64,000 nt of DNA from Zarea fungicola (Eukaryota; Ascomycota; Sordariomycetes; Hypocreales; Cordycipitaceae), in assembly GCA_900169235.1 (NCBI GenBank), contig FWCC01000322.1, forward strand, positions 1 through 64,000, given 5' to 3'. A program made the position numbers and the translations under genes. Below are positions 932 to 22,525 of this stretch, piece after piece; positions within the stretch are counted from its first letter, which is position 1; each line of letters starts with the position of its first letter. Under the pieces are notes generated by a model. The model saw only the letters and a list, made by a program, of their open reading frames with translations, was not told the origin of the DNA and did no database searches.

Positions 932-1301
932 ATGCCTCTCTCTCAAGAAGCAGTTATTGCCCTTACCGGTCTTGTCCTTGACCTGCCTTCCAAGGTCGGC
1001 AGCTTATGGCTTTGGTGCAAGTCCATCTTTGAACAATCGACTTTCCATCCACCCGCAGGCCTGCAGGGTACGTTATACCTATTCTTCGGTCGCAGAGCAA
1101 GCACCATCGCCTGCATCATAGTAATTAATTTTGAAATTTTCTCGTCGTTTCTTTCTAGACGATTTAGAGCTTGGCCACTCTTTGGAGGGAGCCCCGCCAC
1201 CTTCAACCAGTCGTTTCTTCAGCACCAGTACGCAGACAATGAGACTAGTGGTGGCTTATGAGCAAGATGTCCGCCAACACCAGTGGCTCTATTTGGACTG
1301 A
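932..1301 (+). CDS. Small membrane protein family, copy A (92 aa, two exons)
   Basis: Exons 932-1067 and 1159-1301, intron GTACGT...TTTCTAG (91 nt), phase 1. Exon 1 starts MPLSQEAVIALTGLVLDLPS, followed by WLWCK and a polar tail. The hydrophobic stretch at residues 7-28 could be a single membrane segment with a short outside N-terminus. Exon 2 begins DDLELG, is rich in Ser/Thr/Pro, and has LVVAYEQ near the end, which copy E shares. The start is the ATG whose sequence context is repeated in copies E and G. No named family is recognised and the function is unknown. A one-pass membrane protein is inferred from hydrophobicity only; the hydrophobic run contains an aspartate (LDLP), so a membrane-associated helix or a weak signal anchor is also possible. 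Confidence 0.7.
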
Positions 1302-1620
1302 ATGAATAAGGAAGACCATTGTCTTTTACTTCAGGCGATTTGTTAGTTTTATGAGAGTATATGTAGTATGTAGCCCCGAGAAAACGTCATCATTTGCTTT
1401 TAAACGTTGAAACACTAAGAAGCCCAGCTCACTGCTACCTGCACGCGCCAGTAAGTGTGCTAAACCCCCCATTGGTCAGATGCAACGGTGCCTACACCCA
1501 ATCATGCTTCCGCCTGGATTTTATAAACACGTTGAACATGGGAGTGGGGCTTGTACTCACACACCGGCCATGCCGGTCGTTCTTTTATCTCTTGAAATGC
1601 AGCTCTTAAATGGTTAGGGC

Positions 1621-1628
1621 TATAAAAG
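1621..1628 (+). promoter_or_regulatory. TATA box upstream of copy B
   Basis: TATAAAAG lies 117 bp before the ATG of copy B and is followed by a pyrimidine-rich leader. It fits a core promoter. Confidence 0.5.
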
Positions 1629-1737
1629 AGTCTTGCCTCGAGCTCAACGACTGCTTGAAAAGTCCAAGTAGGCTCTCTCACAACCAAAGCCCACCTTGAC
1701 ATCATCTGTTTGGCACCCGGCAATCACAGCACCGCCA

Positions 1738-2093
1738 ATGTCACTCTCTCAAGAAGCCGTCATCGCCCTCACGGCACTCATCCTCGATCTCCCAGCCACA
1801 TTCAGCCACGTGTGGCGGTGGTGCCAGTCGCTTGCTCGGCCATCTACTTCCGAGCCACAAAGAGCGATGCCCCGTACGTTCACCTACAATCCCATCACGA
1901 GAAGAACGGCAGGGGGGGTATCCTTCAAGAGCAGCAGCTAACATGGTCGCCTTTTTCTTTTCCTTTAGACGATGTGGAACTTGGCGCGTCATGGGGGCGG
2001 CCCTTGCCGGCAACTGGCAGTCGTCCGATCTACCGAGTGTACACGCGGACAGAACTATTGGCCTATGAGTACACTGTCCCCAATCGTCGGTGA
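1738..2093 (+). CDS. Small membrane protein family, copy B (86 aa, two exons)
   Basis: Exons 1738-1873 and 1969-2093, intron GTACGT...CCTTTAG (95 nt) with a GCTAACA branch-like site near 1936. Exon 1 has exactly the same length (136 nt) and phase (1) as copy A. It reads MSLSQEAVIALTALILDLPA, then WRWCQ. Exon 2 starts HDVELG, a variant of the family DDLELG motif, and ends with LLAYEY, the counterpart of VVAYEQ in copies A and E. A TATA box stands 117 bp upstream. It lies in tandem with copy A, same strand, 436 bp away. Function unknown. Confidence 0.7.
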
Positions 2094-3786
2094 CCGCGTC
2101 TGGATGTAATAAGCATGGGAGTTTTTGGTGATGTTTATTTTCAGTCCATGTATTTCTCCATATAAGTATTTCCCATACTTTAAGAGATCTATTTTGATTT
2201 TTTATTTATTAATATTGTTGATGAAGATGCCTGCCGAATGGCCGTGTAAGATGAAGTCGCGCCCATGAAATTGGCTGGTGGGCGAGCTTTTTTCCTCCAC
2301 TCTGCGCAAGGGCATCTAGAACACGACATTACTAGTCCAAACTGGTGCTAGCCGGACCGTTTATTCTAGGCTCGAAAGTAACCTTCGCCATCGTGTTCAA
2401 GGATTATCGAGACTAGAGTAGACTGTGTAACCAAGAGACTTCATTGTAGAACTTGTCGCAGGTCCTTATCAGTCTCACAGGGCCTTCAAGTTGGCAGTAC
2501 ATTTGATATTTAAGATTCTAAATGAGTTGGAATTTTTGAGGAATGAAATTGACACCGTTGGCTCAAAATGAAATTAAAGAAACAAAGGACAAGGAAATGA
2601 GAGGAAGAAAAGAGAAAACGAGTACATATTCTACCAAACTAACTCCACGTGTCTTGGTTGGCAAACCTCTGCTTATTGCCGTGGTTGCACATTTCCGGTC
2701 CAAATGTCGTCTGCATCTTCGAATAGAGAGGTAGCTGCAAGTAACGGCGGCTGCGTTTCATCGTGTACATTTCAGCAGCGGCAGTTGCAATTCGCAGCGG
2801 TGTACCGAACAGTGGAGGCGTTGGCTATTTACACGTTTGCACCATGTATTTATGTACACCTATTGCCCGTCTTTGTCGAAGCCGTGTAATGCCCTCGGCG
2901 TCATGGAATTGCACTAGAAGTGGCGTCAGCGTTACATCAAGGAGCCAATCGGGTGATTCCTAGCGTGGCATTGTTGGGCCGTCACCAATACAAGGTAGTT
3001 AGTAGCTTGCGTACGACACTCACGAGAAGAGGACACTAGTCTGTGCTGAAGGCAAAAATTACAAAACGCCTCAGGCGGCTGATTGTGGAGCGCCTGACTG
3101 GTCATGGTGCGAGATGGAGGTACCCGGCTATACGTAAAATAGCATGCAAAGGCGGTGGGAACTGAAACAGGCAGGAATTATTCCACTGTGGCCGTTAGCC
3201 AGCGCGTGGCAGTTGGAGCTAAAGGGTGGCAGTTGGACAGGGGTAGCTCTGAGAGCGGTGCGCTTTCGTCCTGCGACTTTCCATGGGTGCGAACTTATAT
3301 CCAGGGTCCAGATCGAAGTCGACCGTGGCGGCGCAGGAGTCATCCCTGATAGAGGAAATGCTTCGCCCCTACGCACTCGCCAAGGTGTTGGATGTATGTA
3401 CCTATGTAGCAAAAAGCTGCGGGCCATGCCTGCACAGTTGGCCAATGGCATTTCACGTTGCCCAGGACTCGACCATTCCCACCAGAAACATTCAATAGAG
3501 GAATTGTGCCGCGGTCGCTCAAAGACATGCCTCTTCTCGTCCTCTTGCGAGCCGCAACCTAAATTTTTTTTGCCTTTGCTATAACATGTAAATTGCTTGG
3601 ACAATTTTTTCGAGTTTTCTCTGCAGAACCCTCTTCTTCTCGCAGAGGAAAGGTACACAACACGTGAACTACGAGTTACTACAGAAGGTCCCGCGCAACC
3701 CGGCCGCAAGACTTGCAACAGCGCACACCAAACAGGCCGGCCGACTGGACTTGGACGTGGACGCGAGCCTCACAATATTTTGCGCA
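2094..3786. other. 1.7-kb intergenic stretch, no supported gene
   Basis: Open frames of 60-196 codons exist on both strands (the longest on the minus strand, 3128-3718), but they lack recognisable domains, credible starts and splice signals, and overlap one another in composition-driven fashion. It probably holds the 3' region of copy B and the promoter of copy C. Confidence 0.4.
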
Positions 3787-4187
3787 ATGTCGCTTTCACC
3801 AGAATCTGTCATTGGACTTGCCACCCTAGTTGTCAACCTCCCACCTTTTATCAACGTTGTTTGGGCCTGGTGCAAGTCCGCTGTTCGGCGAGTGTCGCGC
3901 CCAACCAATGCTGATGTGCGAACCACCTCTATTGACGGTACGTTTGTCTATCTTGCCGGGCATCCACGAACAAAAATAAAACAGAAAAAAGAAAGGAAAC
4001 GATTTTACTAAATCAACAAGGATTACAGCAAATGGAAGCTAATTTTTTGTGCCTATATTCAGATGACTTGGAACGAGGTCTGGACTATGAGCGGCATGCC
4101 CACAATGTCCATCAACGCACTTACTATGCCTTCAATTTGGATACACCAACTGTGAAAGTCGCCGTTGTCGCCTCCACTTCCATCTAG
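3787..4187 (+). CDS. Small membrane protein family, copy C (91 aa, two exons)
   Basis: Exons 3787-3937 and 4063-4187, intron GTACGT...TATTCAG (125 nt), phase 1. Exon 1 reads MSLSPESVIGLATLVVNLPP, then WAWCK and a basic, Arg-rich stretch. Exon 2 begins DDLERG and is otherwise unlike the other copies. The PP after the hydrophobic half links it to copies D and F, while WxWCK links it to A, E and G, so it is intermediate between the two subgroups. The basic residues right after the hydrophobic segment suggest an inward-facing C-terminus (inference). Function unknown. Confidence 0.65.
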
Positions 4188-5479
4188 TGACATGGTGTAA
4201 CCAAAGAGCAGCAGCGGGTGTTGAAAGTGAACGAGGAGGTACATACGGATCGGAGATGAAATAAATAGATTTCTTTTGCATGCAAATATGGAAAAGAGTG
4301 GGCAGAGACTATCAGGTGCGCAAGCAAATCGAATTGGCGATTATTCATCGCGCAACAAGTTTGAGGAGCTGTAATCATGTAAACTGTCTCGGTGTCCCAT
4401 TGTAGGCAGCTGTCATGTCTTGATCAACGATCGCGGCATGAGAGAAAGACGTGAGAGGTGAAAAAAAGAAAATTGAATTGAAAAGATTTCCTGATTGGAC
4501 AAACATGGACCAATAAGGATCAAATCATCCCCAGATTTTGACTGAATCGTTCTAGTGGACCAAACACAACGGCGGGGCAGCAGGGGACCACTGAGATGGG
4601 ACCAATCACTAACAAGGTCAAAAATGCTCACCTTTGCCGGTTCTCATTGGCCGGCACTTTCAAATCGAACTACTCTGGAGTTCGGCTTTCAATGTTTATT
4701 CCCTCGTGCCCCCTCGTCCCCCCCTCGTACAAGCAGAGAACGGAACGCAATGGAGGTATGAGATTGTGGTGGCGGTTTTTTGCATCCGCACAGCTGTGTC
4801 TTTGAGAATGAGGCTGGTTGTGTGGTCCATTACCCACGGTTATTAGGGGTTCCCAGTATGGGCATCTCCACCAGCAAAGTGGCGTTTTCCTTGCACCCTT
4901 GTCACGGCCTGACCAAGCGCGAAGCGGCTTAGTAGGTACAAGATGTGGCAAGGCTGATTCTAGCAGAAGCCGGATCTTAACCCAGGCCAGCGCCATGTGA
5001 GCTTGTTAGCGTCACTGAAATGTAGGCAGTCCGCACTAGTCTGGTAAGAGCGGTGCCCTGCAGAAGCCGACCAGGTACGTATCTCAACACGCGTTGCCAC
5101 GCAAAGTGCAAGTCAAAGTACAACATTAATAATGTAAGTAACGTATGCGTACCCGTCAAAGTCGCGGATTTCTCATCAGCCGCACTGGACCCCAGACCGT
5201 CCCTGGTTTTTCTCAAGGGCCGCCTCCTATCAAACCTCTTTGGCACTAGGTCGGCAACGACACTGTAGTGCCACACGATGGCTGCCGGTTTATAAAGGCT
5301 TGTTCTTCGTCACCTTGTGCAAGATGGACAAGGAATGAGTTTATAGCAGCATATGACATTGTCCTATCACTGAACCAAGTATTCTATCCTCTTTTGTTCC
5401 TATTTCTTTCCATTACCAATCATCTTTTTGTGGAATTATACACGGCCGTACTCTTGAGCAGGACCTATTCCCAGTCGCA
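4188..5479. other. 1.3-kb intergenic stretch with TATA box for copy D
   Basis: No gene can be supported. TATAAAGG at 5291 lies about 190 bp upstream of copy D. A segment just before that ATG (a TACCAATCATCTTTT-like run) is shared with the leader of copy F. Confidence 0.4.
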
Positions 5480-5806
5480 ATGCCATCTCTCTCCTCGGAA
5501 ACGATAATAGCCCTACTCGCGCTGGTTGTGGCTTTGCCCCCAGCGTTGATAATTGTGTGGCGATGGTGGCGCAGGTGCTCGGCCCGGACTGTACCTGGCG
5601 AAAGACTACCAGACTCTGAAGGTATGGTTCAGGCGGTCGTGCTCTCAGCAAGAAGACACAATATTAGATAAAAAGCTAATTACTTTATTTTCTTAGAAAT
5701 GGAATTGGAATCTGTAGCCTGGCCGCCGCCTCTACTAATGATACCGACAACATCCCGTGGAGGCTTGCTAATAGAGATTCGCGCACTCCTGACAAGCGGT
5801 ACTTAG
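5480..5806 (+). CDS. Small membrane protein family, copy D (83 aa, two exons)
   Basis: Exons 5480-5621 and 5697-5806, intron GTATGG...TTCTTAG (75 nt), phase 1. Exon 1 reads MPSLSSETIIALLALVVALP, then PALIIVWRWWRRC. The hydrophobic run at residues 8-27 is long and uninterrupted enough to be a convincing membrane helix, with WRWWRRC as interfacial and positive-inside flank. Exon 2 begins E-MELE, a degenerate form of the family DDLELG, and ends near LLIEIRALLTSGT. It is closest to copy F in both exons and in leader sequence. Function unknown. Confidence 0.7.
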
Positions 5807-7380
5807 GGTCTGGAAATTCGTGATAGCGATTAGTATGTGTAAGGTAAAAGCGGTAGTATACAGGGATATAGAAGAAATAACGAATGTTAAATGGTTCTAT
5901 TTTTTTACGAAATTCCAGACCTCCGCCTAATCTGGTCCAGTTGCCTCGAAAATAAAACAGCCAGCAGGGAAGGAGCTTCGAGTACGGGTGAGATATCTTT
6001 TAGGTTTAGCGCAACTTGACTCAGGGCAGGGTGTGTCGATTTATTGTACGGAGTGTTCGTACTCCGTACTGGTATTGTGTATGTACCACTTACTACCAGC
6101 ACACCGTTTAGCTAGCAGTGCTCGCAGGTCCGTGCGGGCGACACTCCTCCTCCGGCTTCCCTTGCACAAGCCACAACAAACCTTTCGCTTTCCGCCCGGG
6201 GTTCCTACGGGGTCATCAGCCATGTTCTGGGACGCCAGCAATGCATAGACAAGCATAACAAGTCTCGTCAAGTCGAGTGAAGTGGATTGGCTTCCATAGG
6301 CCGGCCAGAACATTGAATCCACCGTCCGCATGGAGGATGACCTCTGAAAGATGTGGAGTGCCGACGACCATGTAATTGTAGCATTAGCTGATGGCAGGGA
6401 ACAATTTCCACAAGAGGCAACAGCTCAGATTTGGAAAGCGTTCAATTCGGCCGACAATTTTCAGCACAAAAAGTAATAAACAAGGGCTGTTTTCTAACAG
6501 CCACCACAGCAGGTATGCTTTGACTGATTATTACCTGCGGTGTAGTGCTTTGTGTCGCGGCCGTAAGTCCGTGTCTGGTACCGTTTAACGGCTTCATTTC
6601 ATCTGCTTTAGAGTATGGGTTCCTACTTCGTGCACTGCTGCCACCAGTTCCCCGGTAACGGCTGTAGCAAAAAGTCCGATTACATTATGTGAAGTAATCA
6701 CCAGGCTCGTGGCCGTCTGCATGTCTGTTGTTACATTTGGTTTCATTCTTTCCTCTTTGGTATGTTTGGAAGATAGAGAGCGCCACCCGTCATTTTGTCC
6801 ATGCGCACTTGTAAATTACCCTGCCCTGGCGCAGCGTACATGGCAGCGCTAGCCATATGTGCAAAATGGTTATGCACCGGGTGTGGCTCGGAGTGCAGAG
6901 AGACGAAAAACTGGTGCAGAGGCGGACGAATAGAGGGACGAAAAACATGTAACTAAAACGGCCAAGGGCCCGGGTCCCGGGACAGGGCGACGCCACCTGT
7001 TGCTTCGTTGCATTGGTGCTGCCACAGCCGAGTTTGGAGTTGACCACGGTCCGGCCCTGACAGGTTTCCTGCAGAGGTATAAAATAAACTTGCTTTCCCT
7101 CTATCTTCCGGGGTCTCTATTCAGAAATTTCCGTTGTGTCACTGTCAATTCCTTTGTTGTGTCCCCTTCCTGTATCGAGGCCTGGCCTTTGCCTGATTCC
7201 CTCCTTGCTCTCTACGGCATCCTATGCTACATTGCTCATCGCAAACTCGACTATCCCTAGACTGGCAACAAGTGCGGAGTGCAACGAACGAACGAAACCA
7301 GTCAGGCCAAATAAAAACAACCAATAAGAGGCATGTCCTAGGAAAACCATATTCATTCCAATTGCGAATTCTTTCTTCCA
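5807..7380. other. 1.6-kb intergenic stretch, promoter of copy E at its end
   Basis: No supported gene. The last 305 bases contain a TATA box and leader that are repeated upstream of copy G. Confidence 0.4.
7076..7103 (+). promoter_or_regulatory. Core promoter of copy E, conserved with copy G
   Basis: GGTATAAAATAAACTTGCTT followed by TCCCTCTA is almost identical to 10652-10679 upstream of copy G. Both begin with a TATA box about 280-305 bp before the ATG and run into a pyrimidine-rich leader. Conservation of this non-coding stretch points to a shared promoter inherited by duplication. Confidence 0.65.
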
Positions 7381-7761
7381 ATGCCTCTATCCCAAGAAGC
7401 CATTATTTCTCTCACTGCACTTATCCTTGATCTTCCTTCCACTGCCAAGAACCTCTGGCATTGGTGCAAATTCATGGTCGGGGAAACCTTTCCTTCCAAC
7501 CCTCGTCTGCAGGACCACTCTGACGGTGCGTTTCCCTATCAGCTCCTCACAGAAAAGTATAAGAAAGAACATTATTTGAATAGAAATGGCTAAAATATAA
7601 TCATGAATTTATATATAGAAGATTTGGAGCTCGGTCATGTACCATTGGCAATGGCGCCTATATCTACGGATGGCAGTCGCACATCCGCTGGCTATACAGA
7701 GATACAGCGGACGCTAGTGGTTGCTTACGAACAGACGGTTCGACATCATCCCCGGCAGTGA
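7381..7761 (+). CDS. Small membrane protein family, copy E (95 aa, two exons)
   Basis: Exons 7381-7525 and 7619-7761, intron GTGCGT...TATATAG (93 nt), phase 1. Exon 1 reads MPLSQEAIISLTALILDLPS, then WHWCK. Exon 2 begins EDLELGH and ends LVVAYEQTVRHHPRQ, close to the end of copy A (LVVAYEQDVR). Copy G shares nearly the same exon 1, an IGYTQI/AGYTEI block in exon 2, and the promoter. The shared C-terminal AYEQ block in copies A and E, despite poor conservation between, suggests it matters. Function unknown. Confidence 0.72.
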
Positions 7762-8129
7762 CTGGGTAAAAGGCAAGCCTGTGGAAAGGAGGACATTGGC
7801 CGGCAAAATTAAAATTCTTGTTCGGTATTCATATTGATGTACAACTTCCTCGACGGAAAAAAAAAGATAGTAGTGAGGTTTGGAATATAGAAGGCCATTT
7901 ATTGTTTTAGTAATACTAACTAGTTGGTCCGTCATACCAATTCTCTGCTTTACAGCGGGTATATTACGCTACCACATTTAGTGTTGCTCTAATTTCTCCT
8001 GGCACGCTTCAGTGCAAGGCGCTATAAAAAGGGATTCGGACGTTCAAGGCCGACATTATTTGCCAAGATTTGATGCACAAGGGCTGAAGCTTGTAGAAAA
8101 TAACATAGACATGGATATATATTTTTTTA

Positions 8130-8154
8130 AATATATATATATATATATATATAT
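8130..8154. repeat. (AT)n microsatellite
   Basis: Twelve consecutive AT dinucleotides, seen directly. Confidence 0.95.
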
Positions 8155-8906
8155 CTAAGTCTATTAGAAAAAAATTCACTGCTGGGTTGAACAATCCTCA
8201 TCAACATTCCCATAACGAGACAGCACCCCTTAACAAGACAGACCCACTTAGCCTAAAACCAGCCGAAAACCCGCCGGCTCGGCCCGTGTGCAAGCGTAAC
8301 GGATGGGGAAGCGCTATAACTTGTTGGTTGAGAACTTTAATCGTAACTAAGGGTAGGATGCAGTAGGCGCATCACTTGGACCAACCCGCAATCACCCCAG
8401 CTAAAATTGCTGTGGCAACTGACTCCAGGGCACTATCTGGAGGAGAAAACGGCCGTGCAGTATATTGAAAACGGGCTCCATCGTAAACAAATTGTTTCAA
8501 CTAGAAGAGACCACAATAAAAAAGATGAAGAAAATAAATCCCCGCCTAATTAAAAAAAAAAAAAGATCTCAAGTTCACACTCACTTCGTTTCTTGGTCCC
8601 GCGGTTCCTAATCATGGCCCCAACTACTGCGTACATTTAACTGCTTTAGCCTGACTGAACGTAACACCGGCGATATCTCCATGGTATTTTGCAACGGCTT
8701 AGCGGGGAACGCCGACGCCTTCCGGAGGTATCTAATGGTAAGCTGTTTACAATGATGCTGATTCAGCTGGCAAATTATACCATCTTGGCAATTCTTCGGA
8801 CATAAAAAACTACAAACCCCGCAGAACAAGCCGTCCTCCGCTACCTGGGGACGCGATGGGACAATGTTCCACAGGGGACGGTACGTACCCATTGTCGGTG
8901 AACCCA

Positions 8907-9213
8907 GCACAAGGCGACTCAAAGTACAAAAGTTGGCGTCGTGTACATGTAACTCTTCAGTCACAACGCCCACCGTAACGCATCGATTTGACTTGGTCCT
9001 GCAAGGCTGTGTCAAATATGCCAGCTTGCCACGAGGCTACGTACAGGTAGTGGCAAACTAAGCACGGGGCGAGTCAAAGTACAAAAGTTGGTGTCACGTA
9101 CATGTGACCACTTAATCATAACGTCCACCGAAACACCTCAAATTGGCTTAGTTCCGCAAGGCTGTCAACATATGCCAGCTTGCCACGAGGCTGCGTACTG
9201 TAGTGGGCGAATT
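8907..9213 (+). repeat. Two tandem copies of a diverged ~150-bp unit
   Basis: Unit 1 (about 8907-9060) and unit 2 (9061-9213) both run GCAC(A/G)(A/G)GGCGA(C/G)TCAAAG...CAAAAGTTGG...GTACATGT...AAGGCTGT...ATGCCAGCTTGCCACGAGGC...AGTGG. A third start (ACAAGGCGAGTAAT) follows at 9216. The units differ at many positions, so the duplication is old. It lies directly upstream of copy F. Confidence 0.75.
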
Positions 9214-9536
9214 GGGACAAGGCGAGTAATACGACAAATTTGCGGCTCTCAGCTCATTGGCCCGATGAATCAGTTTCGTCAGCTCATCCGCAAGCTGAGC
9301 GCCTGCGATGCTTCCAAGAGGGGGCTATTTTCATTATATATACTTACTACGCTTGCCTCCTGGGTGATGGGTTTCCAAATTGCCCCATATGAATGAATAA
9401 AGTTTCACACTGACGTATGTTGTCTCTTTTTTTACTTAACCAAGTATTTGACTTTATTCCTTTTTCTTTCCATTACCAACCATCTTCTCTTGTCCGATAC
9501 GAGCGTATTTTTGGTCAAGATCTGATTCTTGTCGCA

Positions 9537-9880
9537 ATGCCGTCTCTCTCCCCCGAAGCCATCATAGCCCTGCTCGCGCTGGTTGTAGCTCTCCCACCAG
9601 CCATGATCATTCTGTGGGGGTGGTGGCGCCGGTGCTCAACCAGAGCTGCAACTGGCGGAAGACGAATACCGGATTCTGAAGGTATGCTTGGCGCAGGAAT
9701 GCTATTAGTACAAGACAACACAATGAATAGAAGTGCTCATCGGTCATCTTCTCAGAAGCGCAGCTGGCCGTTGCAAACGGACCGCAGCATGTACTGTTTA
9801 TGCCGACAACAGCCCGCGGAGGCTCAGCCCGCGGAGAATTGCTTCTAGAACTGCGTGCGCTACTGACAGCCGGCTCTTAG
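9537..9880 (+). CDS. Small membrane protein family, copy F (89 aa, two exons)
   Basis: Exons 9537-9681 and 9756-9880, intron GTATGC...CTTCTCAG (74 nt), phase 1. Exon 1 reads MPSLSPEAIIALLALVVALP, then PAMIILWGWWRRC. Exon 2 begins E-AQLAV and ends LLLELRALLTAGS, matching LLIEIRALLTSGT of copy D. The hydrophobic segment (residues 8-28) and flanking WWRRC make a one-pass membrane protein likely. Copies D and F also share their leaders and downstream neighbours (E and G), so the pair was probably duplicated as a unit. Function unknown. Confidence 0.7.
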
Positions 9881-10261
9881 AGGGCCTGGAGCGCCTGTGT
9901 GGCGGTGGGCATTTGTCAACTGGAACAGCGAGCAATGTAGATGTTTGTACTCAATATAGAACAAAGAAAATTGGATTCACGCAAATGTCAAAAGAAAAAT
10001 AATTCGTTTTAATATTCGGTGGACTTTTTGCCGTCACAATTCAGTCACAGAGTAAGCAAGGTGATGCGATCACTTAAATATACAATCGAGGAAGATTCAG
10101 ACAGTTTCGCACTATGCTTATGGCCCTTGCATAGTGTTGGCGCGCTGTCGCATATCCTCGGACGAAAACACGGAAATTCTGCCCACGAATATTGCTCAGT
10201 GTCACACTCTAAGCCACTTCAACGCAGCGCCACGGCCTCTAGGCGCAGGGAGTCGTGACAA

Positions 10262-10392
10262 GTAGGGAGTTGACGGCATGTGTGGAGCTAACGACTCTAC
10301 TGGGTAGCATGTTGACGACCAGTAGCGGGTTGACGACAACTATCGAGTTGACGAAGCGGAGTGGCTTGGCGACCAGCAGGGGTTGACGCTCA
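10262..10392 (+). repeat. Degenerate GTTGACGA-type minisatellite
   Basis: The motif (A/G)GTTGACG recurs five times in about 125 bp with spacers of 16-36 bp. It lies between copies F and G, and no gene overlaps it. Confidence 0.5.
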
Positions 10393-10651
10393 GCCTGGCA
10401 CATGGGGACCGGTGGATAATGAGAGGACCCATGTCCTCAGTTGTTCCTTACTGGTGGAATGGGCGTGACAGCTGCAACCTTTGCCATTTCTTGCTTCAAG
10501 CACTGATTTTGACCGCCCCATCCAAAGTGGGCACTGTTCGTTTTGGCCTTTGATATGGTTGGTTGAAATTCAGTCTCCTGGATTAAAAAGGGAAAAGTGA
10601 GCACTCGGTTTGACTTGATGGACGGCGCTCAGCGCAAGCAGCTCAGCCAGT

Positions 10652-10679
10652 GGTATAAAGTTAACTTGCTTTCCCTCTA
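10652..10679 (+). promoter_or_regulatory. Core promoter of copy G, conserved with copy E
   Basis: GGTATAAAGTTAACTTGCTT followed by TCCCTCTA, the counterpart of 7076-7103. Further blocks of leader similarity follow up to the ATG, such as AACTATCC and CAAGTGC..GAACGAAAC. Confidence 0.65.
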
Positions 10680-10930
10680 CGTCTTGTTGTAGTGCTCAAA
10701 ATCAAAACAATACTGTTCTTTGACAATTCTTTTTTTGCCTCTTTCCTGCATCGACGGTGAGCATTATCCGAGTCCCTTTTGTCTTGAGGCGCGGTGCAAC
10801 ATCTCTCCCCGCATAATCAACTATCCACAAGCCTCGTACCAAGTGCCAGGAACGAAACTGATTAATCGTTATAAAAAAAACAGCTGCCACAGGAGTTATA
10901 TCCGGTCCGTTTATCAGAAAACCAGTGCCA

Positions 10931-11300
10931 ATGCCTCTATCTCAAGAAGCCATCATTTCTCTCACTGCCCTTATCCTTGATCTTCCGTCAACCGCCAAAA
11001 ATATTTGGTGTTGGTGCAACTTTATAGTCCGCAGGGCATCGCTGTTCAACTCTCGTCAGCAGGCATCTGCTCAAGGTACGTGTAGTTATCATTTTTTATA
11101 AAAAAATAAGGAGAGAAAATTGCCTACAATCAAAAAAAAAACTAGAATAAATAATTAATAGTTATATAGTGGATTTGGAGCTTGGCCGATTCGCGCATGT
11201 GTCTGTGGAACGGAGTGAGACCCCGATTGGCTACACTCAGATACACCAAAAATTCGTCGTGATCCATGAACACACCGTGTTACGTCACCCTTGGTACTGA
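10931..11300 (+). CDS. Small membrane protein family, copy G (91 aa, two exons)
   Basis: Exons 10931-11075 and 11170-11300, intron GTACGT...TTATATAG (94 nt), phase 1. Exon 1 (145 nt, same length as E and F) reads MPLSQEAIISLTALILDLPS, then WCWCN. Exon 2 begins VDLELGR, contains IGYTQIH and ends VVIHEHTVLRHPWY, which aligns with VVAYEQTVRHHPRQ of copy E. Exon 1 is almost unchanged relative to E while exon 2 is heavily substituted. The function is unknown; membrane association is inferred. Confidence 0.72.
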
Positions 11301-12341
11301 CTTGATTTATGGGTCTGGCTTTATAGTGTTGCGAGAGATAGCCGAGTAGAGTTCTTGGGATGGATGCAGTTGAGAATAATATGCAATTACATTAATGGTA
11401 AATTGATCTTTTGAACGTAGACTATGTTTGGATTGGGTACCAGTTGAGGCTCGTGGCTAGTGTAGTGGGAGCTATAGTTAGTCTGTGGAGTATGAAGCAA
11501 CCCTGCTACATCGTCTCGACTCAGGCGTGCGTCGAGATATACAAGAGGTGGCAGTGGTTTAAACATTTCTAGACATGCACGGTGGGCAATATAGAGGTTT
11601 AAAAATAGGCAGAACACATAGCCGCTGCCTCTACTCTACTCTGTGGCACAACCTAGCCAGGGTAAGTAAGGACATATTGACTATAGTGGGATACTGGGGA
11701 AGTTCGTTTCCCCCTTGGTTTTACCGGTCTTAGCATCCTTGCTAGGGCTAGATGCATTTACAGCAAATAGATTAGATGGACTAGATGGCTTAGATATAGC
11801 TAGGGGACGCATTAGGGTATAAAGAGCCTAAGAAGCCTTATTAGTGGGTGTGAGTTTAGAGAGGGTGTTAAAGTGTTGAAGTGAGTTTTTGTCGATGTAG
11901 ACTACGAAGTTCGATGGTGAAAAGTGTGGGGACAAGTACAAAGTACCTTTTGCAAAAGATACCTGGCATGCCGTCTTGCCCAATCCAATGTTCAAGTATT
12001 TTCCCAAAAGATACCTGCACGCCTGGATGCTACAAAACTCCAGCGTCTCACAGAAAACTTGCGCCACAGGATCTGTGCGCCATCACACCAAAAACTGCCC
12101 AAGGATTCTTATATAGCACGCAGTCCCTGCTCGACCTTTGCCTCATAAACATCCTACCAAGACACGATTTAGAAAGAACTGGCCAAACATGAAAGAGATG
12201 TTGCCTGTCAGTATTTAATTTTAATTTCCCAAGCCAACCTCAATTGTTACTCGAGAAATCCCTCTTCTCCCACCCCAGATTCCCACGTTAGAGACACCTG
12301 CAAGCCTTCAAAGTCTCAAGACACATCCCACTCTTTGCGCA
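11301..12341. other. 1.0-kb intergenic stretch, promoter of copy H at its end
   Basis: No supported gene. Short open frames lack domains and splice signals. Confidence 0.4.
12108..12142 (+). promoter_or_regulatory. Core promoter of copy H, conserved with copy I
   Basis: CTTATATAGCACGCAGTCCC followed by TGCTCGACCTTTGCC corresponds to CTTAAATAGCACGTAGCCCA followed by GACTCGACTTTCCC at 21922-21955. A TATA-like box sits about 230 bp before each ATG. Confidence 0.6.
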
Positions 12342-12813
12342 ATGGCTCTTTCAACTGGAGACGCATCTTCCGTCACTGGCACCATTTTTACCATTCTGGG
12401 CGTTATTGTTGCCATATTTGTTTTTTTATGGACTGTCCCCATCGCTCGCGCGGCCACTTGCGGCTTGCTCTCGTCAGTCATTAAGTCGCTGATCTGCCAC
12501 ACTGCTCCGTCGCGCAGAACTGAAGGTGCGTACAAATATACACCGCGTACAGTCAACTAGAGGGTTAGAAAAGTCGGCCAAATATATTAATTACTAATTC
12601 TATCAAGATGACCTGGAGCTTGGCCTGCCCCAACAGCGACAATTTCCATCGCCGCGTCCTATGCTGGCTCCTCGTGATGGCTCTAATCCACCGCCTTGGG
12701 CGATTTGGCGGCTTGAAAGGCGTGAACAGACCATTCTCATGTTTCAACCCAGTCTAAATGCGGAGCTTGGAAGAGACACTTATGAGCGATCTCTTGACCT
12801 TGTCAATCTATGA
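12342..12813 (+). CDS. Small membrane protein family, copy H (129 aa, two exons)
   Basis: Exons 12342-12525 and 12608-12813, intron GTGCGT...TATCAAG (82 nt), phase 1. Exon 1 has MALS at the start, then VTGTIFTILGVIVAIFVFLW, a clear membrane helix at about residues 11-30, and a second mildly hydrophobic stretch to residue 50. Exon 2 begins DDLELGL, as in copies A and C, and continues with a long polar tail with two Trp. It is the longest member. The same intron phase and junction motif join it to the A-G group even though the helix sequence differs. Copy I is its closest relative. Function unknown. Confidence 0.7.
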
Positions 12814-14514: not shown

Positions 14515-14862
14515 CTAAGGTAGATTAGTAATGCATATCTGCAAGGGATATTCATAAAAACATACAAATCCTTTGCATTTGAAATTCTGTGGCTAGAAAA
14601 GTCTGTTAGCGTACATCCCATAGCTTGAAATATATGTTTCTTACGCAAGCAAAGGCAATCTCGTTATTCGGGAGGTAACAGGCTCCTTGAGGATGCAAAT
14701 CTCCCAAGTAGCAGGACCCGGCGATACCAGTCTACTATGTCAGTACTTTTAATGTTGAGATAATGTATGGCTTAAACTCACTCGAGGTACAACAGGCGCA
14801 GTAGGACTGGCAACTGCAAAAAGAGGAAGCACTAAGCCACCAATCCAAAGGGTGTAATGCAT
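14515..14862 (-). CDS. Small six-cysteine secreted protein (81 aa, three exons)
   Basis: Minus-strand exons 14862-14782, 14731-14645 and 14592-14515. Intron 1 is GTGAGT...CATAGTAG with ACTGAC nearby. Intron 2 is GTAAGA...GCTAAC...TTTTCTAG (52 nt), a textbook fungal intron. The protein starts MHYTLWIGGLVLPLFAVAS, a good signal peptide, followed by a Thr/Pro-rich spacer. The rest carries six cysteines: SCYLGD, GACYLP and FAC in exon 2, and FKCKG, VCFY and QICI in exon 3. An even cysteine count after a signal peptide suggests three disulphides. Size and layout fit secreted effector-like or antimicrobial-type peptides, but I recognise no family. The intron 1 acceptor is less certain: an earlier TAG acceptor would give an immediate stop. 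Confidence 0.55.
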
Positions 14863-16160
14863 TTTGTAGTTTAAATCGCGAAGAAGAGTGAATAACTTGA
14901 GGAAAGATGCTACAATTTCAATATCTAAACGGTTACTTCCAAGCATTTATACTTCTATAACGGAAAATTAGATTCCGCAAGACCATAAACTTCAACACAG
15001 AGAGCGTCCTGACATGCGGAAGTGAACTTCCGATGTCGCGTGCCTACTATGAAGTTTGAAGACTAATCAGTTCTTCAGGTGGAGCAGTTGGTTGGTGACT
15101 CTCCAATTTGTAGTCAGAACTACGCCGCTTTCTTGTGTAGTGCCTTTTTTGGCAAGAGGCCCATACGTCGGCGAAGCTCTTTGTCTTCGTGTCGCTGAGA
15201 TGCCCAGAAGTCTGGTAGCGTATAGATATTAAAGAACGCTGAGAATGAGAATCAATTTCGCAGTTTAATCAAGGTTGAACGGTTGATACTAATGGAACGG
15301 ACAGGATGTAATAAATGGACAGTTGCGGGATAGTCAACAGTCTCTCAGAACGACTATGCATAGGGTGGAATGTACCAACTCTGCAAGGCTTCTGTATTAA
15401 CCTTAACAATTACATTCTTTTCTTGGGGTAGCAGGGCAAACTCTTCTCTGACGCCGTACTTGGTGATTAATAATATTTAGCCTAGAACTTGGCCCGGCTA
15501 TTTTGTCAATTCTAGTAGGTGACTGGCGGTGTCACGAAACTGTGGAGTTTGACCGAGGTACCGTAGTTAGTAAAACTTGCTATGGCGGTAATAATACAGG
15601 GTATAAGGCTAGTGCTGAGGTAGGGACGACCACATTACACTTGGGTCGCGAGGCGAGTCAGTCATTTGTGGGTTACAACTTAGCCGACATCAAACTAACA
15701 ACATGATAAATGGAGATACTTAGCCGACATCAAACTAAAAACATGATAAATGGAGATACTATAGCCTTATTTGGAAGTTATCAATAAAAAAAGAGATGTT
15801 AAACGACTCTGGCAGTTATAAACAAGCACAGAGATTATTAATGCAAGTGGAAACTACTGTAAGATAACAGTATGACTCCGCTCTACTAGCAACAATGAAT
15901 ACAAAGAGATGCACAAATCAAGTTAGAGAAAGCACCAAGGCAACTTGCAAAATCCCAAAGTTCCTGGGTTTGTTTGAAGACATAATCAATGCCTGAATCT
16001 AGCAGCATTATTGACGTGAACGCTGGGCACAAAAGTATATAAATCCTGGCTCGTCCAACAACCCTCCCTTACTTCTCTCTATTACTTTAACTTTAGCAGA
16101 CAACCTTCTACTTTAAGCAAACCTTTCAAACTTTCCAAATACTACCGAAACACCTTGACC
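14863..16160. other. 1.3-kb stretch with a short tandem duplication and a TATA box
   Basis: A 67-codon frame at 15503-15706 (GDWRCHETVEF...) has no ATG and no clear upstream exon, so it is left as an unassigned open frame, perhaps a relic. A TATATAAA box at about 16036 serves the gene at 16161. Confidence 0.4.
15681..15760 (+). repeat. 40-bp tandem duplication
   Basis: Bases 15681-15720 and 15721-15760 are identical except for one C/A difference (TAGCCGACATCAAACTAA[C/A]...GAGATACT). Confidence 0.95.
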
Positions 16161-16826
16161 ATGCTTTGGCATACCATTGTACTGTTGGGCTCCGCATTCA
16201 GCAGTGTTGCTCTGGCACAGGCTGATGTTACTAGCGCTGCTTCATTTGTTTGTAACTTTTTTCCTACTATATAGTGCGATGCTAACATACCATAGGAGCA
16301 CAATTCGCAGGATGTTGAACCGTCCAGCGAATTTCGTGATCAGTTTCCTGGTCGGCTTTGGCTGTATGATCACCCAGAGCAGCCCGTGACCAATGAAACC
16401 ACTTGGTGGGCCACTTCAAATGACAATGGACAATCTCCAGCTTATTGGAAGCCTATTGCGCCATTTGACATGAGCCAGGCCGGCCCATTGGATAACTCAC
16501 CTGATTCAGATGGTGATGATGGATCCCTTGAGCGACGTCTGCCAAGTTATGTTCAAATTTACTGGAGGAATGATTGCACCGGTTTGCCCTCGAAGAAATG
16601 CAATTTCCCACTTCCTGGTACATGCTGTAGCTTTCCTCAGCGTGCACTAATTAATGGCCACTCTGTTAAGATCCCGTCCTACTTACCTGGAGATTTGATT
16701 ATTCCATTTACTGTTACAAACTGTGCTCAAAATATTGGCGCACCAATTCTCTTGGGTTTTACTGGTTGCTACAAGAGCCGCAGTGTTGTTAACTCGGTCA
16801 AGACCCTTTCATGCATCAGCTGCTAA
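16161..16826 (+). CDS. Secreted cysteine-containing protein (205 aa, two exons)
   Basis: Exons 16161-16247 and 16296-16826, intron GTTTGT...TGCTAAC...CATAG (48 nt), phase 0. The N-terminus MLWHTIVLLGSAFSSVALAQ is a typical signal peptide. The mature part is Trp-rich at first (TTWWATSND, YWKPI), then acidic (DSDGDDG), and ends with eight cysteines, including NDCTG, KKCNF, GTCCSF, TNCAQ, GCYKS and SCISC at the C-terminus. No enzyme motif is seen; the layout fits a secreted fungal effector-like or surface protein. A TATATAAA box lies about 125 bp upstream, followed by a CT-rich leader. The promoter, signal peptide and intron make the gene credible; its function is unknown. Confidence 0.7.
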
Positions 16827-17352
16827 TAGGACAAGCGATTAGGGTCGAGGCGGAATATATATGCTAGCTATTAAAGCCGTTTTCTATTAGTCTTTAGTCT
16901 CTCCCCTTTTCTTTTAGTATAAATCTTTAGAAGTTGGCAATTCTATGATTTTTTTACTAAGTCGCGGTTGGTTTTCTTGATAAGACTTTTATAAGAATAG
17001 AACAGTGCAAGGGAATGTGTCGCTTTACCAGGGACTGCATCGTTGTTACATCTTGCCACTGACCCGTCTCGCTCAGCTGCTCCCTACATGACAAATTTAG
17101 GCCCTGTTGATTGCGCGCAGAAGCGCAGTGTATGACTTGGGAATCTATTCATTTTTCAAGAGATTATACCAGTCTTCTACCACGATAATCTGATTTATTC
17201 CCAAACAGCGGAAAGGGGAGGCGCACTTACAGGGGTCGATCCTGCGCTTACATAACAGTTGCGGCAAGGCTTGATGAAGGAAGAGAAACTGTACCCCGCC
17301 TGCCAAGGATCTGCTCGCGTGCTTCTTCCACCAACAACAACAGATAACCCCA
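16827..17352. other. 0.5-kb intergenic stretch, no gene seen
   Basis: 3' flank of the secreted-protein gene and 5' flank of the proline-rich gene; no supported coding frame. Confidence 0.4.
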
Positions 17353-17823
17353 ATGCCTTTGGAAGATATGGCAGGACCACCAGGCTGGCAAACACGTCCC
17401 TCTCCTCCATGGCAAACACATCCCTCTCCTCCATGGCAAACAGGTCCCTCTCCTCCATGGCACGGCAGGCCAAACCCTCCAGGGCCTGGCGGTCCCTACC
17501 CTCCCTGGGATACCGGCCCGCCGGTCTGGTTCCAAATTTTCTCTATATTCATCGGTCTAGCCATATTGGCAGTCTTGGCCGGAGCCTTGGTTCAAGTCCT
17601 GGAAAGGGCTACGGCAGCCTCACATGCCACATCGATTGCGGAAACAACACCACTGTTAGGCACAGAACTGCCACCACCACCGTACGAACCAGGGACCATT
17701 GTGCACCATCCAGAGCCTCCCTCGCACCATCATGATCCAGCACCGCCATTTCACCATCATGACCCTGCACCACCGTCGCATAGTTCACCGTCGCATGATC
17801 CGCCGCCGTCATCACATCATTGA
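17353..17823 (+). CDS. Proline- and histidine-rich one-pass membrane protein with PPxY motif (156 aa)
   Basis: A single-exon frame from ATG. Residues about 10-55 hold tandem PSPPWQT-type repeats rich in Pro and Trp. Residues about 58-83 (WFQIFSIFIGLAILAVLAGA...) form one strong membrane helix. Then comes TTPLLGTELPPPPYEPG, with a PPPY motif of the kind bound by WW domains of Nedd4/Rsp5 ubiquitin ligases in other proteins. The C-terminal 40 residues are HHHDPAPP-type repeats rich in His and Pro. Low-complexity repeats on both sides of one helix suggest a membrane adaptor or surface protein. The PPxY link to ubiquitin-dependent sorting is inference from the motif alone. A decayed relative lies at 24690-24780. 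No family name is recognised. Confidence 0.6.
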   Translation: MPLEDMAGPPGWQTRPSPPWQTHPSPPWQTGPSPPWHGRPNPPGPGGPYPPWDTGPPVWFQIFSIFIGLAILAVLAGALVQVLERATAASHATSIAETTPLLGTELPPPPYEPGTIVHHPEPPSHHHDPAPPFHHHDPAPPSHSSPSHDPPPSSHH

Positions 17824-19994
17824 GAAACAACGAAGCTTTAGGAATATATTCTTGTCAGTCTAACGGTCTTTGCATGGTGCATAAAGGAAGACATTTTGCT
17901 GGTCAGCCCTGCTCCAGGGTAGAGGTTGCCTGAAAAGCATTGTATATACAAAGTAGTCATCTCCATGACACAGCCTAGCCACTGTGCTTTAAACAACGAT
18001 GGAGCCATACAAATATAATTTTCAGGCACTCGCGGCCCTGCCATGAAGTACCATGCTCTGATCTAAACTGCTGCTGGCACAGTGGCGTGTATATACTCTG
18101 CAGAGTAGTGGAGCTATTTTATGTTGAGTTACAAGTTGTCCTGCAAGCACATGTACCGTGCCGCAGCAAAATATGCTGTGGCGCTGGAAGAGCATATGCC
18201 GCGATGTGGCAATGGCAACTGCTGTGGCTTGGCAAATCAGATACTTTGACAGAATGGGTCTAACGAGCTCGTACGTGGAGGGAGTCTCTTTTTAGCTTCT
18301 TCTGCCTCTTCTGCCACTTCTGCCATCTTTCGAACATGTATATGTATACAGTACTTCTAGCCAGAGTCTACCCTTTAATTTCAAGTCCAATTTTAAAAGC
18401 ACGGTTTGGTATTTTGGGCACCCCATTGTCCCCATTTTGGATACGACCTGGGCGGGCAATTATTGAGGCGACAAGGCTGACTACAGGCCAAGTGGCATAG
18501 GCAGAGCAAATTTGGCTCCTCTTTTCTACTTGTTCTTTGTTTGGCCGCTTTTTATTTATTCTTTTCTTTTTTGAAACTCGGCACGGGAGAAATGATTTTT
18601 TCTCTCAAGCACAAAGTTGAGGGTGGTAGTTGGACACATACATCATTCTTCGGAGTGAAAAGTACTCGCTCGGGACATTGGCGCGGCACAGACATGCGTC
18701 TCAAACGAGTTAGAACAAGTTTACTCACATGGGAATAGTGTGGCAACTTGCAGTCTCCCTGCCTGCACGAAATACAGATTAGCGTTACTCTTTGACCAGG
18801 TAGGTGAGGCTTACCATGGCCCGGAGTTTGGCAGAAGTGTGCCACCGTTTGGTTAGTGTATGTCCGCACTGGCAGCATCCCATACCGCAAAAGCTGATGC
18901 AGCGGCATGGAGTGGTCTGGGACAAAACGGTTCCTGGTGCCGGGTATTTTCCTGGTACTTGTTCATTGCTCAATTAATGGGGCTGTGCGGCATCGACGCC
19001 ACTAGCGGTAACTAGTGTGTTTTGCTGTCGTTCTCAGTGGTTGATTTGGTATTTGCTGCCCGGATGAATGCCTGGGATGAATCTTCTCTCTTTTCTCTTT
19101 CCCTTTGTGGCGCCCCTGATCCGTCGTCGCCAGACTCATCCAAAGGGCTCCGGAGAAGACTGAGCCAGAGAAACATACCAACAATGTGTCTCTTCTTGAA
19201 ATGTAGCCTGTCATGCTGATATCTCGAATGCTGCTAAAGGCGATCCGCAGACTGAAAATATAAATCTTGCTCCAGACAGACTAGGCCCGCACCGGGGATA
19301 CTCTTCCGCTTCCATGACAGCCGTCTAGTACTCACGGCGCCCGCCACACCACGTGTTGATGAAATGGGGCGATTGGATATAAAACTCGGTAAAAAAAAAA
19401 AAAAAAGACCCGGAAACTTTCCGAGGGGCGAAGGAAGCAGCCGGTGCTAGTGCATAGAATGCTCCAGCAGTTACTGTGGGAGATTTGATGGACCAGCAGG
19501 GGGGCCTTCAGCATCCACATTATGAATCTGTGTTAACAACAGTCGGACTTGTCCGAGACGTTTATTACCATTTGACTGAATTAGTGAAAATATGAAGAAT
19601 TCCACCACCGAGTCTTGCAAGCGGCTTGGGAGGTCCCGCCGTTGTGGCTTCACATACTTGCCCCCGTTTTGTAGCTGGTGCAAGGGTGGCTCGGTGATGT
19701 AGATCGTGCTTGTGCTTGTCCTTTTCTTTTTACGCCTGTTGAAGAGATTCGAACTGATGGCGCATATTTATTAAGGTGGTAAGTTGCAGCGTCGCTGCAG
19801 GGCAGTCTTTGGCGTACAGGAGAGTGGAGAGCAAAATGCATCAAATACATAAAGGCAAGAGGAAAGGGATGTGCCAGGCTGCACAAGTGCAAGTGCCAGA
19901 GTGGGAGGAAGTTGCCGGATGGGAAGAAAATATTACGACGCAAAAGTCACAAGCTAAAAAGGTTACAAGGTGAAAAAGTAACTAGGAAAATGTT

Positions 19995-20236
19995 CCAAGG
20001 TAAGATTGTGGAAGGTAGGATTGTGGAANNNNNNNNNNNNNNNNNNNNNNNNNNNNNNNNNNNNNNNNNNNNNNNNNNNNNNNNNNTGGAAGGTAGGATT
20101 GTGGAAGGTCAGATTGTGGAAGGTAGGATTGTGGAAAGCAAGATTGTGGAAAGCAAGATTGTGGAAGATCAGATTGTGGAAGGTCAGATGTGGAAGGTCA
20201 GATGTGGAAGGTCAGATGTGGAAGGCAAGATTGTCG
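19995..20236 (+). repeat. 15-bp minisatellite interrupted by an assembly gap
   Basis: The unit GTGGAAGGTAGGATT and its variants (GGTCAGATT, AGCAAGATT) repeat through the region. Bases 20029-20086 are N. In one frame the array reads EGRIVEGQIVESKIVE-like peptides, but there is no start or neighbouring domain, so it is treated as non-coding. The last copies shift to a 14-bp unit (GTGGAAGGTCAGAT). Confidence 0.9.
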
Positions 20237-21921
20237 TTTCAGTGTCAGAGTCAGACGCCACGAGGATCTGCCGGATTGTTCTGGGCTGTGTCGCATTGCG
20301 TTTTGCTTTTTTCGGGATATATGACGGCTAGGATTCAACTCAATGCAGTTTTACAATTAAGCACAGGAGAAGCACCTCAGGAAATACAGGGGTCTGCTAG
20401 CTGACCCTGGCTGCACTTTCCCTCATCATATGGTCGAGATCAAGATTTTCGGACCGGGGGCAACGCCACACTTTGACAGCCGCCCGCCAACAGGTCCGTG
20501 CGACGGTCCCTGCCTTCGTTTTTCCTAGGATGCAACGCGGATGTATTCAAGGGAGTACGCTTCGCGACAGAGAAAACACTCATCTTCTACACCAACTCTC
20601 ACTTGTGGCTTTGGTTATACATGATCGAGAGGCCGCCGCTTTGAGGAGTGTGTGCTTTGCCAAGACGGGACACAATACGCGTATCCGTGTACCGAAAAGA
20701 AAAGAAGACCGGAAGTAGGAAGGAAATGAAAGAATAAAAGGGCATGCAAGAATGAGGAAAGGGGTGGTTTAAAAAAAGAAAAAGCAGCAGACCACTCGTC
20801 CGACAAGTGTCTTTAATAGTACGCAAGGCAAGGCTCAGATACATTTCGTTGCGATGTACGTCCGTGGGCAAGAAGTTCTCTATTGCGAGGACCGCATCCG
20901 GAAATTATGTCAAATATACTAGGTAGACCTACAATAGTTATCAAACGTAACCCATTATGACTATGTTTCGATGTCGGCTTTAACTATATCATGGAATAGT
21001 GAGCAACTGTAGCAACTGCGCATCGATTGGGAGTCATGTTATATAAGTGTTTGAGTGTGGTACACAGATGAAAAAAGGTACCGCACAAGTACAGAAAAAA
21101 ATCAGCTCGTAGGAAATTACACTTTCCAGAAAATACAGGTTACAGAAAATGCAAATTCAGCCAAGGGGCCGTTTTAGGTGAATTGAGTCCATGCAACGGT
21201 GCCTACATGTGAAAAAAAAAACCCACTACATCCTTTGGCTGGTATAGGACACCATTTCTTCTAGAAATGGTATACTCTGCTAGTCGGGAGCAAAGAAAAA
21301 CTACCTGCAAGCCGCGGTTCATGGGGTAATGGAGTTGGTTTCTATGGTGTAGCACATTGCCAGAACGGAGCCAACCAAGCCAAACGTCCTCGTGGTTTAT
21401 TGCAAAGTTCCAACAGCGTAGTACAACAAAAAGAAACAAGACCATTTGCTCTCTTTTTCCTATGCCGACGCTTAATCCACTAAAGTAAATAGTTACAGCT
21501 TACAAGGGTGCTTACTTCTCTCGCTCAACGAGTGGACAAGGTTCTGGTTGGGTGTTTTCCAAGGCATGTCAAATCTTCATTGGTCATCGTCATTGTCGGT
21601 GTGTCCGCGCGCCCGGGTTGGCCCTGTTTAGCAACAACCACACCCCCATAGAATTACCGGGGATGCCTCTGATCAGCCCGGTCTTAGGCTGTTAAAGAGT
21701 TCTCTCCGTGCGGTAACCCTTGGGCGCTTCATCCAGAGGTATTCACACACCCGACGTCCTCGATTGGACGCATGGCGGTGTTGCGTACGGCTGATCGGAT
21801 CTGCTTCTCTTATAAAGACCACGGTGGAAATTGGGGGACAACACAGGGCCGCGGAAAGAGGAGACTTTTTTGCGGCAAACTCACCTGGTGCATGCCCTCT
21901 ATTGTTGGCTCACCTGTTGCT

Positions 21922-21955
21922 CTTAAATAGCACGTAGCCCAGACTCGACTTTCCC
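21922..21955 (+). promoter_or_regulatory. Core promoter of copy I, conserved with copy H
   Basis: CTTAAATAGCACGTAGCCCA followed by GACTCGACTTTCCC. The same order of blocks is found 230 bp upstream of copy H. Conservation across 10 kb of unrelated sequence supports common descent. Confidence 0.55.
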
Positions 21956-22171
21956 TTCCCGTCCTTCCGGAGAGATACGATTTACAGATAATTGGTCACA
22001 CCTACATGCGCCTTTTCCTCCAATTATCCGTGATTTATGCGCAGAAGAGACTTTCAATCAGCCCATCAATCCAAAGCTCTTGCCTCCTCTTAATCCTTTC
22101 CCTGTCGCTCTGAGGACAAGCAACTCGGAACACAGGTACCGGCTATTGCACTACAATTCCATCTTCACGCC

Positions 22172-22525
22172 ATGGGCCTTTCTATAGGAAACACACTTGC
22201 CGTCATCGGTACAATTTTCACCATTTTAGCTGCTATTATTACCTTTTTTGTCTGTTGCCGGCCTGTTGCCACTGCTCCTGCTGTCATCTGGGTCTGGCCC
22301 GCGTCTATCCTGAAGTGGACGGCCGGCTGTAACGCTGGGTCGCACACAAGCAACGGTGCGTAATGGAAAGCTCGATCAACCAATAGGAGAGAATACGGGA
22401 CATAAATTGATTGCTGATTCTGTAAAGATGACATTGAGCTCGGTCTTGGCCAGCGGGACCAATCGTCCACGCCGAGTCTTACAATGGCTAACCGCGTCGA
22501 CCCCAATCCGCCGCTAGCCGCCTGA
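22172..22525 (+). CDS. Small membrane protein family, copy I (93 aa, two exons, shortened tail)
   Basis: Exons 22172-22355 and 22428-22525, intron GTGCGT...GTAAAG (72 nt), phase 1. Exon 1 has exactly the same length as copy H (184 nt) and shares GTIFTIL in the membrane helix (residues 11-30). Exon 2 begins DDIELGL and then ends early. Copy H reads PPPWAIW where copy I reads PLAA-stop-AI, so a Trp codon of H aligns with TGA in I. Beyond the stop, sequence similar to the H tail (CAGTCTAAA..GGAGCTTGGAAG versus CAATCTAAACGTCGAGCTTGGAAG) continues to about 22590. The protein has therefore lost the H-type C-terminus. It could still work as a short form, or be decaying. Confidence 0.65.

Follow-up and report, generated by a model that had tools for sequence, protein, structure and literature searches.

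What are the nine small genes that follow one another near one end of a Zarea fungicola contig, and what could such a run of proteins be for? They lie on the plus strand at positions 932-22525 of the window, by which we mean the whole stretch of DNA analysed here. It is the leading 64,000 bases of contig C345, which is 94.7 kb long and belongs to an assembly of 43.1 Mb and 456 contigs whose gene content reads as fungal. The genes belong to an old family of two-exon coding genes whose products share a constant charge pattern, and the family includes an old two-gene unit. We tentatively read the products as small membrane anchors with partner-binding tails.

A family of two-exon genes

The first-pass annotation had placed nine genes of 83-129 residues on one strand in this region, and re-reading of the sequence together with gene modelling confirmed all of them at their starts on the plus strand. 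Window genes are named here by their first base, and loci elsewhere by contig and position. Four genes form the LSQEA subfamily: 932..1301 (92 aa, predicted intron 1068-1158), 1738..2093 (86 aa, intron 1874-1968), 7381..7761 (95 aa, intron 7526-7618) and 10931..11300 (91 aa, intron 11076-11169). Two form the WWRRC subfamily, 5480..5806 (83 aa, predicted intron 5622-5696) and 9537..9880 (89 aa, intron 9682-9755). The gene at 3787..4187 encodes 91 residues (predicted intron 3938-4062), and two divergent members are found at 12342..12813 (129 aa, intron 12526-12607) and 22172..22525 (93 aa, intron 22356-22427). The predicted introns of the nine genes are 72-125 bases long.

As first described, the first seven of the nine genes share an exon-1 core. 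Eleven of its columns are invariant in these seven (M1, L3, S4, E6, I9, L11, L14, L18, P19, W26 and W28), and it ends in WxWC in 932, 1738, 3787, 7381 and 10931 and in WWRRC in 5480 and 9537. Written as MxL(S/T)xE(A/S/T)(I/V)(I/V)...P, the core recurs at seven loci elsewhere in the genome, one of which, C419:25568, carries an in-frame stop at codon 4, in the place of the S/T codon. Genes 12342 and 22172 fit only MxLS. One phase-1 intron is predicted in each of 15 gene models, nine in the window and six elsewhere. Intron candidates in the window genes were listed for phase 1 only and the models were chosen with that phase in view, so the phase rests on the exon-2 match between paralogues and on the junctions of two proteins annotated by others. 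These are the hypothetical Zarea fungicola proteins NQ176_g6612 (P0001) and NQ176_g996 (P0009), family members with no function assigned in their records, which are the counterparts of 3787 and C352:27039, respectively, and have the same splice junctions. P0001 continues DDLELGL where exon 2 of 3787 opens with DDLERGL, and P0009 reads DLSR-EERNMG where C352:27039 reads DLSR-EEQNIG. The single phase-1 intron that had been assigned to all nine genes agrees with these predicted and annotated structures.

An acidic (D/E)DLELG-like start of exon 2 had also been reported for most of the genes, and it is real as a group property. Over the first 7 residues of exon 2 in 15 genes, the mean pair score was 3.1 compared with a shuffled mean of -6.2, and none of 2000 shuffles reached it. 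The box is uneven: exon 2 opens with DDLELGL in 12342, DDIELGL in 22172 and EMELES in 5480, while it is weak or lost in C263:49599, C352:27039 and 9537, where most of it is gone (EAQLAV).

Exon 1 specifies a short N-terminus free of basic residues, followed by a single hydrophobic helix that in most members has a proline at or close to its middle, and ends in a basic juxtamembrane stretch; exon 2 encodes a variable tail, mostly opening with the acidic box. In all 21 sequences compared (15 genes and 6 database proteins), no K or R precedes the hydrophobic segment, and one or more follows within 15 residues. Via the positive-inside rule, this charge pattern suggests an N-out/C-in orientation, and because the basic residues follow the segment and none precedes it, a secretory signal peptide is not the default reading. 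For the N-terminal hydrophobic segment noted at first pass, the best 19-residue Kyte-Doolittle mean is 2.6-2.8 in 5480, 9537, 12342 and 22172; it is 1.8 in 3787, and 2.3-2.8 in the ten modelled genes other than 3787 and the four LSQEA genes. AlphaFold2, run on P0001 with five relatives, predicted helices at residues 5-16 and 18-36 with a break just before the conserved LP. The tail of P0001 was predicted to be unordered, with a predicted local distance difference test score (pLDDT) <50 across most of its length. A C-terminal hydrophobic strand reached p <0.05 in 4 of 19 tails (combined p 0.009), a weak signal picked after looking; the tail of C352:27039, with 13 residues only, is too short for it.

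The family was searched genome-wide by protein searches of the own genome, after which the loci were read individually. All nine genes of the first-pass count are present, and that count proved an underestimate: there are 16 loci on five contigs, nine on C345, four on C352 (27039+, 30082+, 36208+ and 52428-) and one each on C263 (49599-), C183 (40666+) and C419 (25568+). We treat 16 as a working figure and a minimum; with 12342 as the query, 12342 alone was recovered. The six stop-free loci outside the window were each modelled with a phase-1 intron, which at C183 has a GC-AG boundary. Across the whole 43.1 Mb, the strict codon pattern MxL(S/T)xEA(I/V)(I/V) has 10 matches, all of them family loci, and a reversed-pattern control has none. 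A looser pattern allowing one extra residue has 11 matches compared with 2 in its control; three are family loci (5480, 9537 and the C263 member), and of the other eight, the three that were read are non-members.

The two divergent members have exon 1 in common (22 of 61 residues) and form a separate clade in the exon-1 tree. They are tied to the family because their exon 2 matches that of C352:30082: for 22172, none of 1000 shuffles scored as high, and for 12342, 2 of 1000 did; their exon-2 match to several other members was not significant in the shuffle test. A short open reading frame lying ~4 kb from C263:49599 (C263 L024 1109, minus strand; MALSAENTIG... / MALSAENTIGVITACFTFFDL...) resembles exon 1 of 12342 and 22172, and was rejected as a member, no second exon being recognised.

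The genes are under selection at the protein level, as seen from an excess of third-position differences and from ratios of nonsynonymous to synonymous change (dN/dS) below 1, with exon 1 under stronger selection than the tail. In four paralogue pairs, third positions account for 72 of the 145 differences seen in exon 1 (one-sided p 3.6e-5) and for 76 of the 185 seen in exon 2 (one-sided p 0.017). The Nei-Gojobori dN/dS is 0.17-0.38 for exon 1 in seven of eight pairs, 0.22-0.89 for exon 2, computable for six of the eight pairs, and 0.18-0.53 overall in seven pairs, all rough values, with several dS near or >1 and some pairs sharing a gene. The relative conservation of the two exons indicates that the anchor has been kept while the tail drifts fast. 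The first-pass description of the family as rapidly evolving thus applies to the tail, exon 2 being less conserved than exon 1, and does not extend to positive selection, of which the dN/dS of the paralogue pairs gives no sign.

Part of the cluster arose by duplication. Genes 5480 and 7381 form a two-gene unit (5369..7763, plus strand) that was duplicated to 9434-11302, yielding 9537 and 10931; 5369-5814 and 9434-9890 are 68.7% identical, and 7072-7763 and 10648-11302 are 63.5% identical. Genes 12342 and 22172 are another duplicate pair, and their DNA similarity (12325-12774 vs 22156-22574, 62.5%) extends beyond the stop of 22172, which is why we regard the tail of 22172 as truncated relative to 12342. 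Counterparts from other sources were found for 3787 (P0001, 56 of 91 residues identical), 7381 (P0002, 36 of 48 exon-1 residues), C352:27039 (P0009, 44 of 58 aligned residues), C352:52428 (P0013, 51 of 60) and the C352:30082/36208 type (P0008, 29 and 32 of 46). As far as protein alignments can tell, these counterparts point to old, retained subfamilies, probably older than the splits from the counterparts, and speak against a purely one-species expansion. In the tree, which was built on 40 columns, only 3 of the 23 internal branches have good support and the bootstrap is unsettled.

Clr5-ankyrin neighbours of one subfamily

The members at C183:40666, C352:52428 and C419:25568 make up one subfamily, and all three stand head-to-head with divergently transcribed Clr5-ankyrin genes. 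A genome search for Clr5 (PF14420) returned 13 loci above the cut-off, including C183:40110-, C352:53038+ and C419:25018-, and the distance from the Clr5 match to the microprotein start is 556, 610 and 550 bases, respectively. The C352 match lies barely above the cut-off (23.1 vs 22.3 bits), and the two start codons of this pair are 592 bases apart, ATG to ATG. Long ankyrin frames, with repeats confirmed by Pfam, adjoin C183:40666 and C352:52428; their proteins are 36.5% identical. An alignment of the C352 and C419 loci that takes in the microprotein and the beginning of the Clr5 gene has 1707 columns, with 63% identity. As a rough chance expectation, the 13 loci with 1 kb on each side cover ~0.06% of the genome, which would place ~0.01 of 16 microproteins beside them.

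The pairing also singles out a type of ankyrin protein. In a genome search that scored 118 of 138 candidates, the leading part of the C352 ankyrin frame (its first 343 residues) matched only C352, C419 and C183, from residues 1, 18 and 33, respectively. All other listed matches to the C352 ankyrin query begin at residue 119 at the earliest, as repeats would. Since the leading part is unique to these loci, the partner type has three detected members, all of them paired with a microprotein. At the other ten Clr5 loci, there is no family match nearby among the matches listed, the flanking DNA itself not having been read. Two frames neighbouring C263:49599 were scanned against Pfam, and one has an aspartyl-protease domain and the other no match, so that they show no common Pfam partner. 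In the available part of PMC6627653, Clr5 is named only within a list of sex-related genes, and in that of PMC12258605, it is mentioned when an orthogroup was excluded. The signalling role proposed at first pass gains indirect support only, from this pairing of one subfamily outside the window.

What the proteins may do

The best reading of the family, which we put forward at somewhat less than an even chance, is a membrane anchor with a partner-binding tail. The protein would sit in a cellular membrane as a single-pass anchor, N-out/C-in, and its short, disordered cytosolic tail would bind a partner and hold it at the membrane, as an adaptor or a sequestering peptide. In one subfamily, the likely partner would be the Clr5-ankyrin product of the divergent neighbour gene, with repeats that could bind the tail. 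Gene duplication and later divergence of the tails could then have produced a set of anchors with different partners. We infer membrane insertion, binding by the tail and partnership with the ankyrin protein from the features described above.

Several observations weigh against this reading. The hydrophobic segment, which the first-pass annotation had given to every gene, is marginal in 932, 1738, 7381 and 10931, with best 19-residue means of 1.2-1.7. The AlphaFold2 model of P0001 is of low confidence (mean pLDDT 59.4, predicted template modelling score 0.22). Constraint on the tail may be weak, since in four pairs DNA identity in exon 2 (57-69%) barely exceeds that in the intron (59-65%), compared with 63-80% in exon 1, and the exon-1 dN/dS of the 12342/22172 pair is 0.73. 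The Clr5 pairing covers 3 of the 16 family loci and 3 of the 13 Clr5 loci; the genome search gave no Clr5 match on the window contig, so the nine window genes fall outside it. The three pairs probably go back by copying to a single ancestral pair, and so represent one old association kept rather than three events. At C419, a stop interrupts the microprotein, while the partner frame is open as far as it was searched, implying that the pair is not indispensable.

The anchor reading can be extended into a wider one, which we consider rather unlikely. The genes would then encode an unnamed two-component fungal membrane system of variable single-pass anchors, in which the tail would tune each anchor to a cytosolic partner. 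The divergent microprotein/Clr5-ankyrin pair would be the best-preserved form of this system, which filamentous ascomycetes at large would use as a switch or recognition device tethered to the membrane.

Among the alternatives, the one that survives best, itself unlikely, would make the proteins small regulators of membrane transporters or pumps that act within the bilayer through the kinked helix, the tail being secondary. Yeast Pmp1/Pmp2 and animal sarcolipin regulate integral membrane transporters or pumps in this way, inside the bilayer, and size, charge pattern and the location of the conserved part in exon 1 would all fit. However, this explanation leaves the acidic exon-2 box and the Clr5-ankyrin pairing unaccounted for, and Pfam and PDB gave no sequence match to such proteins.

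Still less probable, in our judgement, is a role in recognition or antagonism (allorecognition, killer/antidote or defence), in which variable small membrane proteins would act as signals or membrane-active executors and the ankyrin partner would restrain those of one subfamily. The clusters on C345 and C352, the divergent tails and the divergent gene pair with Clr5-ankyrin would suit it, whereas the lack of positive selection and the retention of counterparts between genomes argue against it. So do Pfam scans of 18 microproteins, in which no known domain of fungal recognition (HeLo, HET or other) turned up, although short amyloid motifs would escape such a scan. An NLR-like gene is present on the same contig at 58365-62107, with an NPHP3_N/NACHT frame followed by 12 WD40 repeats in an overlapping frame; it is unlinked, 36 kb off, and proves nothing. 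That the genes are spurious or decayed short reading frames, as their small size and two damaged loci of 16 (22172 truncated, C419 with a stop) might suggest, is highly improbable for the family as a whole, given the exclusive hits of the strict pattern with an empty control, the third-position excess and the annotated Zarea relatives with the same junctions.

Annotation easily misses short intron-bearing genes of this kind, so databases may understate how common the family is in filamentous ascomycetes. The Clr5-ankyrin pairing offers a concrete, testable partner for a class of proteins otherwise without a functional handle, and could also give a role to one type of Clr5-ankyrin protein.

Genomic surroundings and known relatives

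Two further plus-strand genes sit between 12342 and 22172. The first (16161-16826) looks two-exonic, with a hydrophobic start and a Cys-containing body, and its product may be secreted; Pfam gave no match to the main frame, 16296-16826. The second (17353-17823) encodes a Pro/His-rich protein of 156 aa, also without a Pfam match, with a single hydrophobic stretch and the motifs PPPPYEPG and ETTPLL, which we take to be of the PPxY and dileucine types. TATAWA occurs at -300 to -50 in 6 of 15 family genes compared with 14% of 2000 random window positions, a difference that is suggestive only and was set aside as proof of promoters. At the contig end (1-308), about 30 bases of the left end recur, by eye, as the reverse complement at ~279-308, like a small inverted-repeat element. 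Two adjacent copies of ~205 bases each, 75% alike, occupy 8877-9238, and a short tandem array of TGGAAGGTAGGATTG-like units at ~19980-20230 is broken by a stretch of N, of which the window contains 58. A stretch of ~125 bases, 74% similar, occurs in both microprotein clusters, at 6138-6265 of the window and at C352 L023 2599-2720.

The first-pass remark that no named family is known with this layout holds across the collections searched. No Pfam-A model reached its curated cut-off in any of 18 proteins (22172 and C352:27039 left out), PDB gave nothing better than E 0.16, and three protein-database searches, with candidates held to 0.55-1.75x the query length, returned only nameless, 'hypothetical' or 'uncharacterized' matches. 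Judged by titles and the starts of abstracts, none of the papers that literature searches brought up describes the family. The uncharacterized 71 aa protein GGS25DRAFT_474870 of Hypoxylon fragiforme (P0014, E 1.2e-8) has the MTLSPEAIISIVGVLINIPP helix, a basic end and then GEDIELRR; far more diverged and compared by protein alone, it carries the family, by this likeness, into another order, presumably the Xylariales. A match in Aspergillus unguis (P0017, E 0.082) is not significant.

The Clr5-ankyrin proteins are divergent neighbours of one subfamily and not relatives; they are large (frames of 1026 and 1044 aa, with ankyrin repeats) and do not match the microproteins. The closest likeness in kind is to the yeast Pmp1/Pmp2 proteolipids and the animal sarcolipin regulators, which are very small, pass the membrane once and have a basic cytosolic side. 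The microproteins resemble them in size, predicted single pass and basic cytosolic side, but have no significant sequence match to them in Pfam or PDB, and we know of no acidic exon-2 box in proteins of those types. On present comparisons, we file the genes as a family not yet described, whose general kind, the single-pass membrane microproteins, is known, and one branch of which has an unusual genomic partner.

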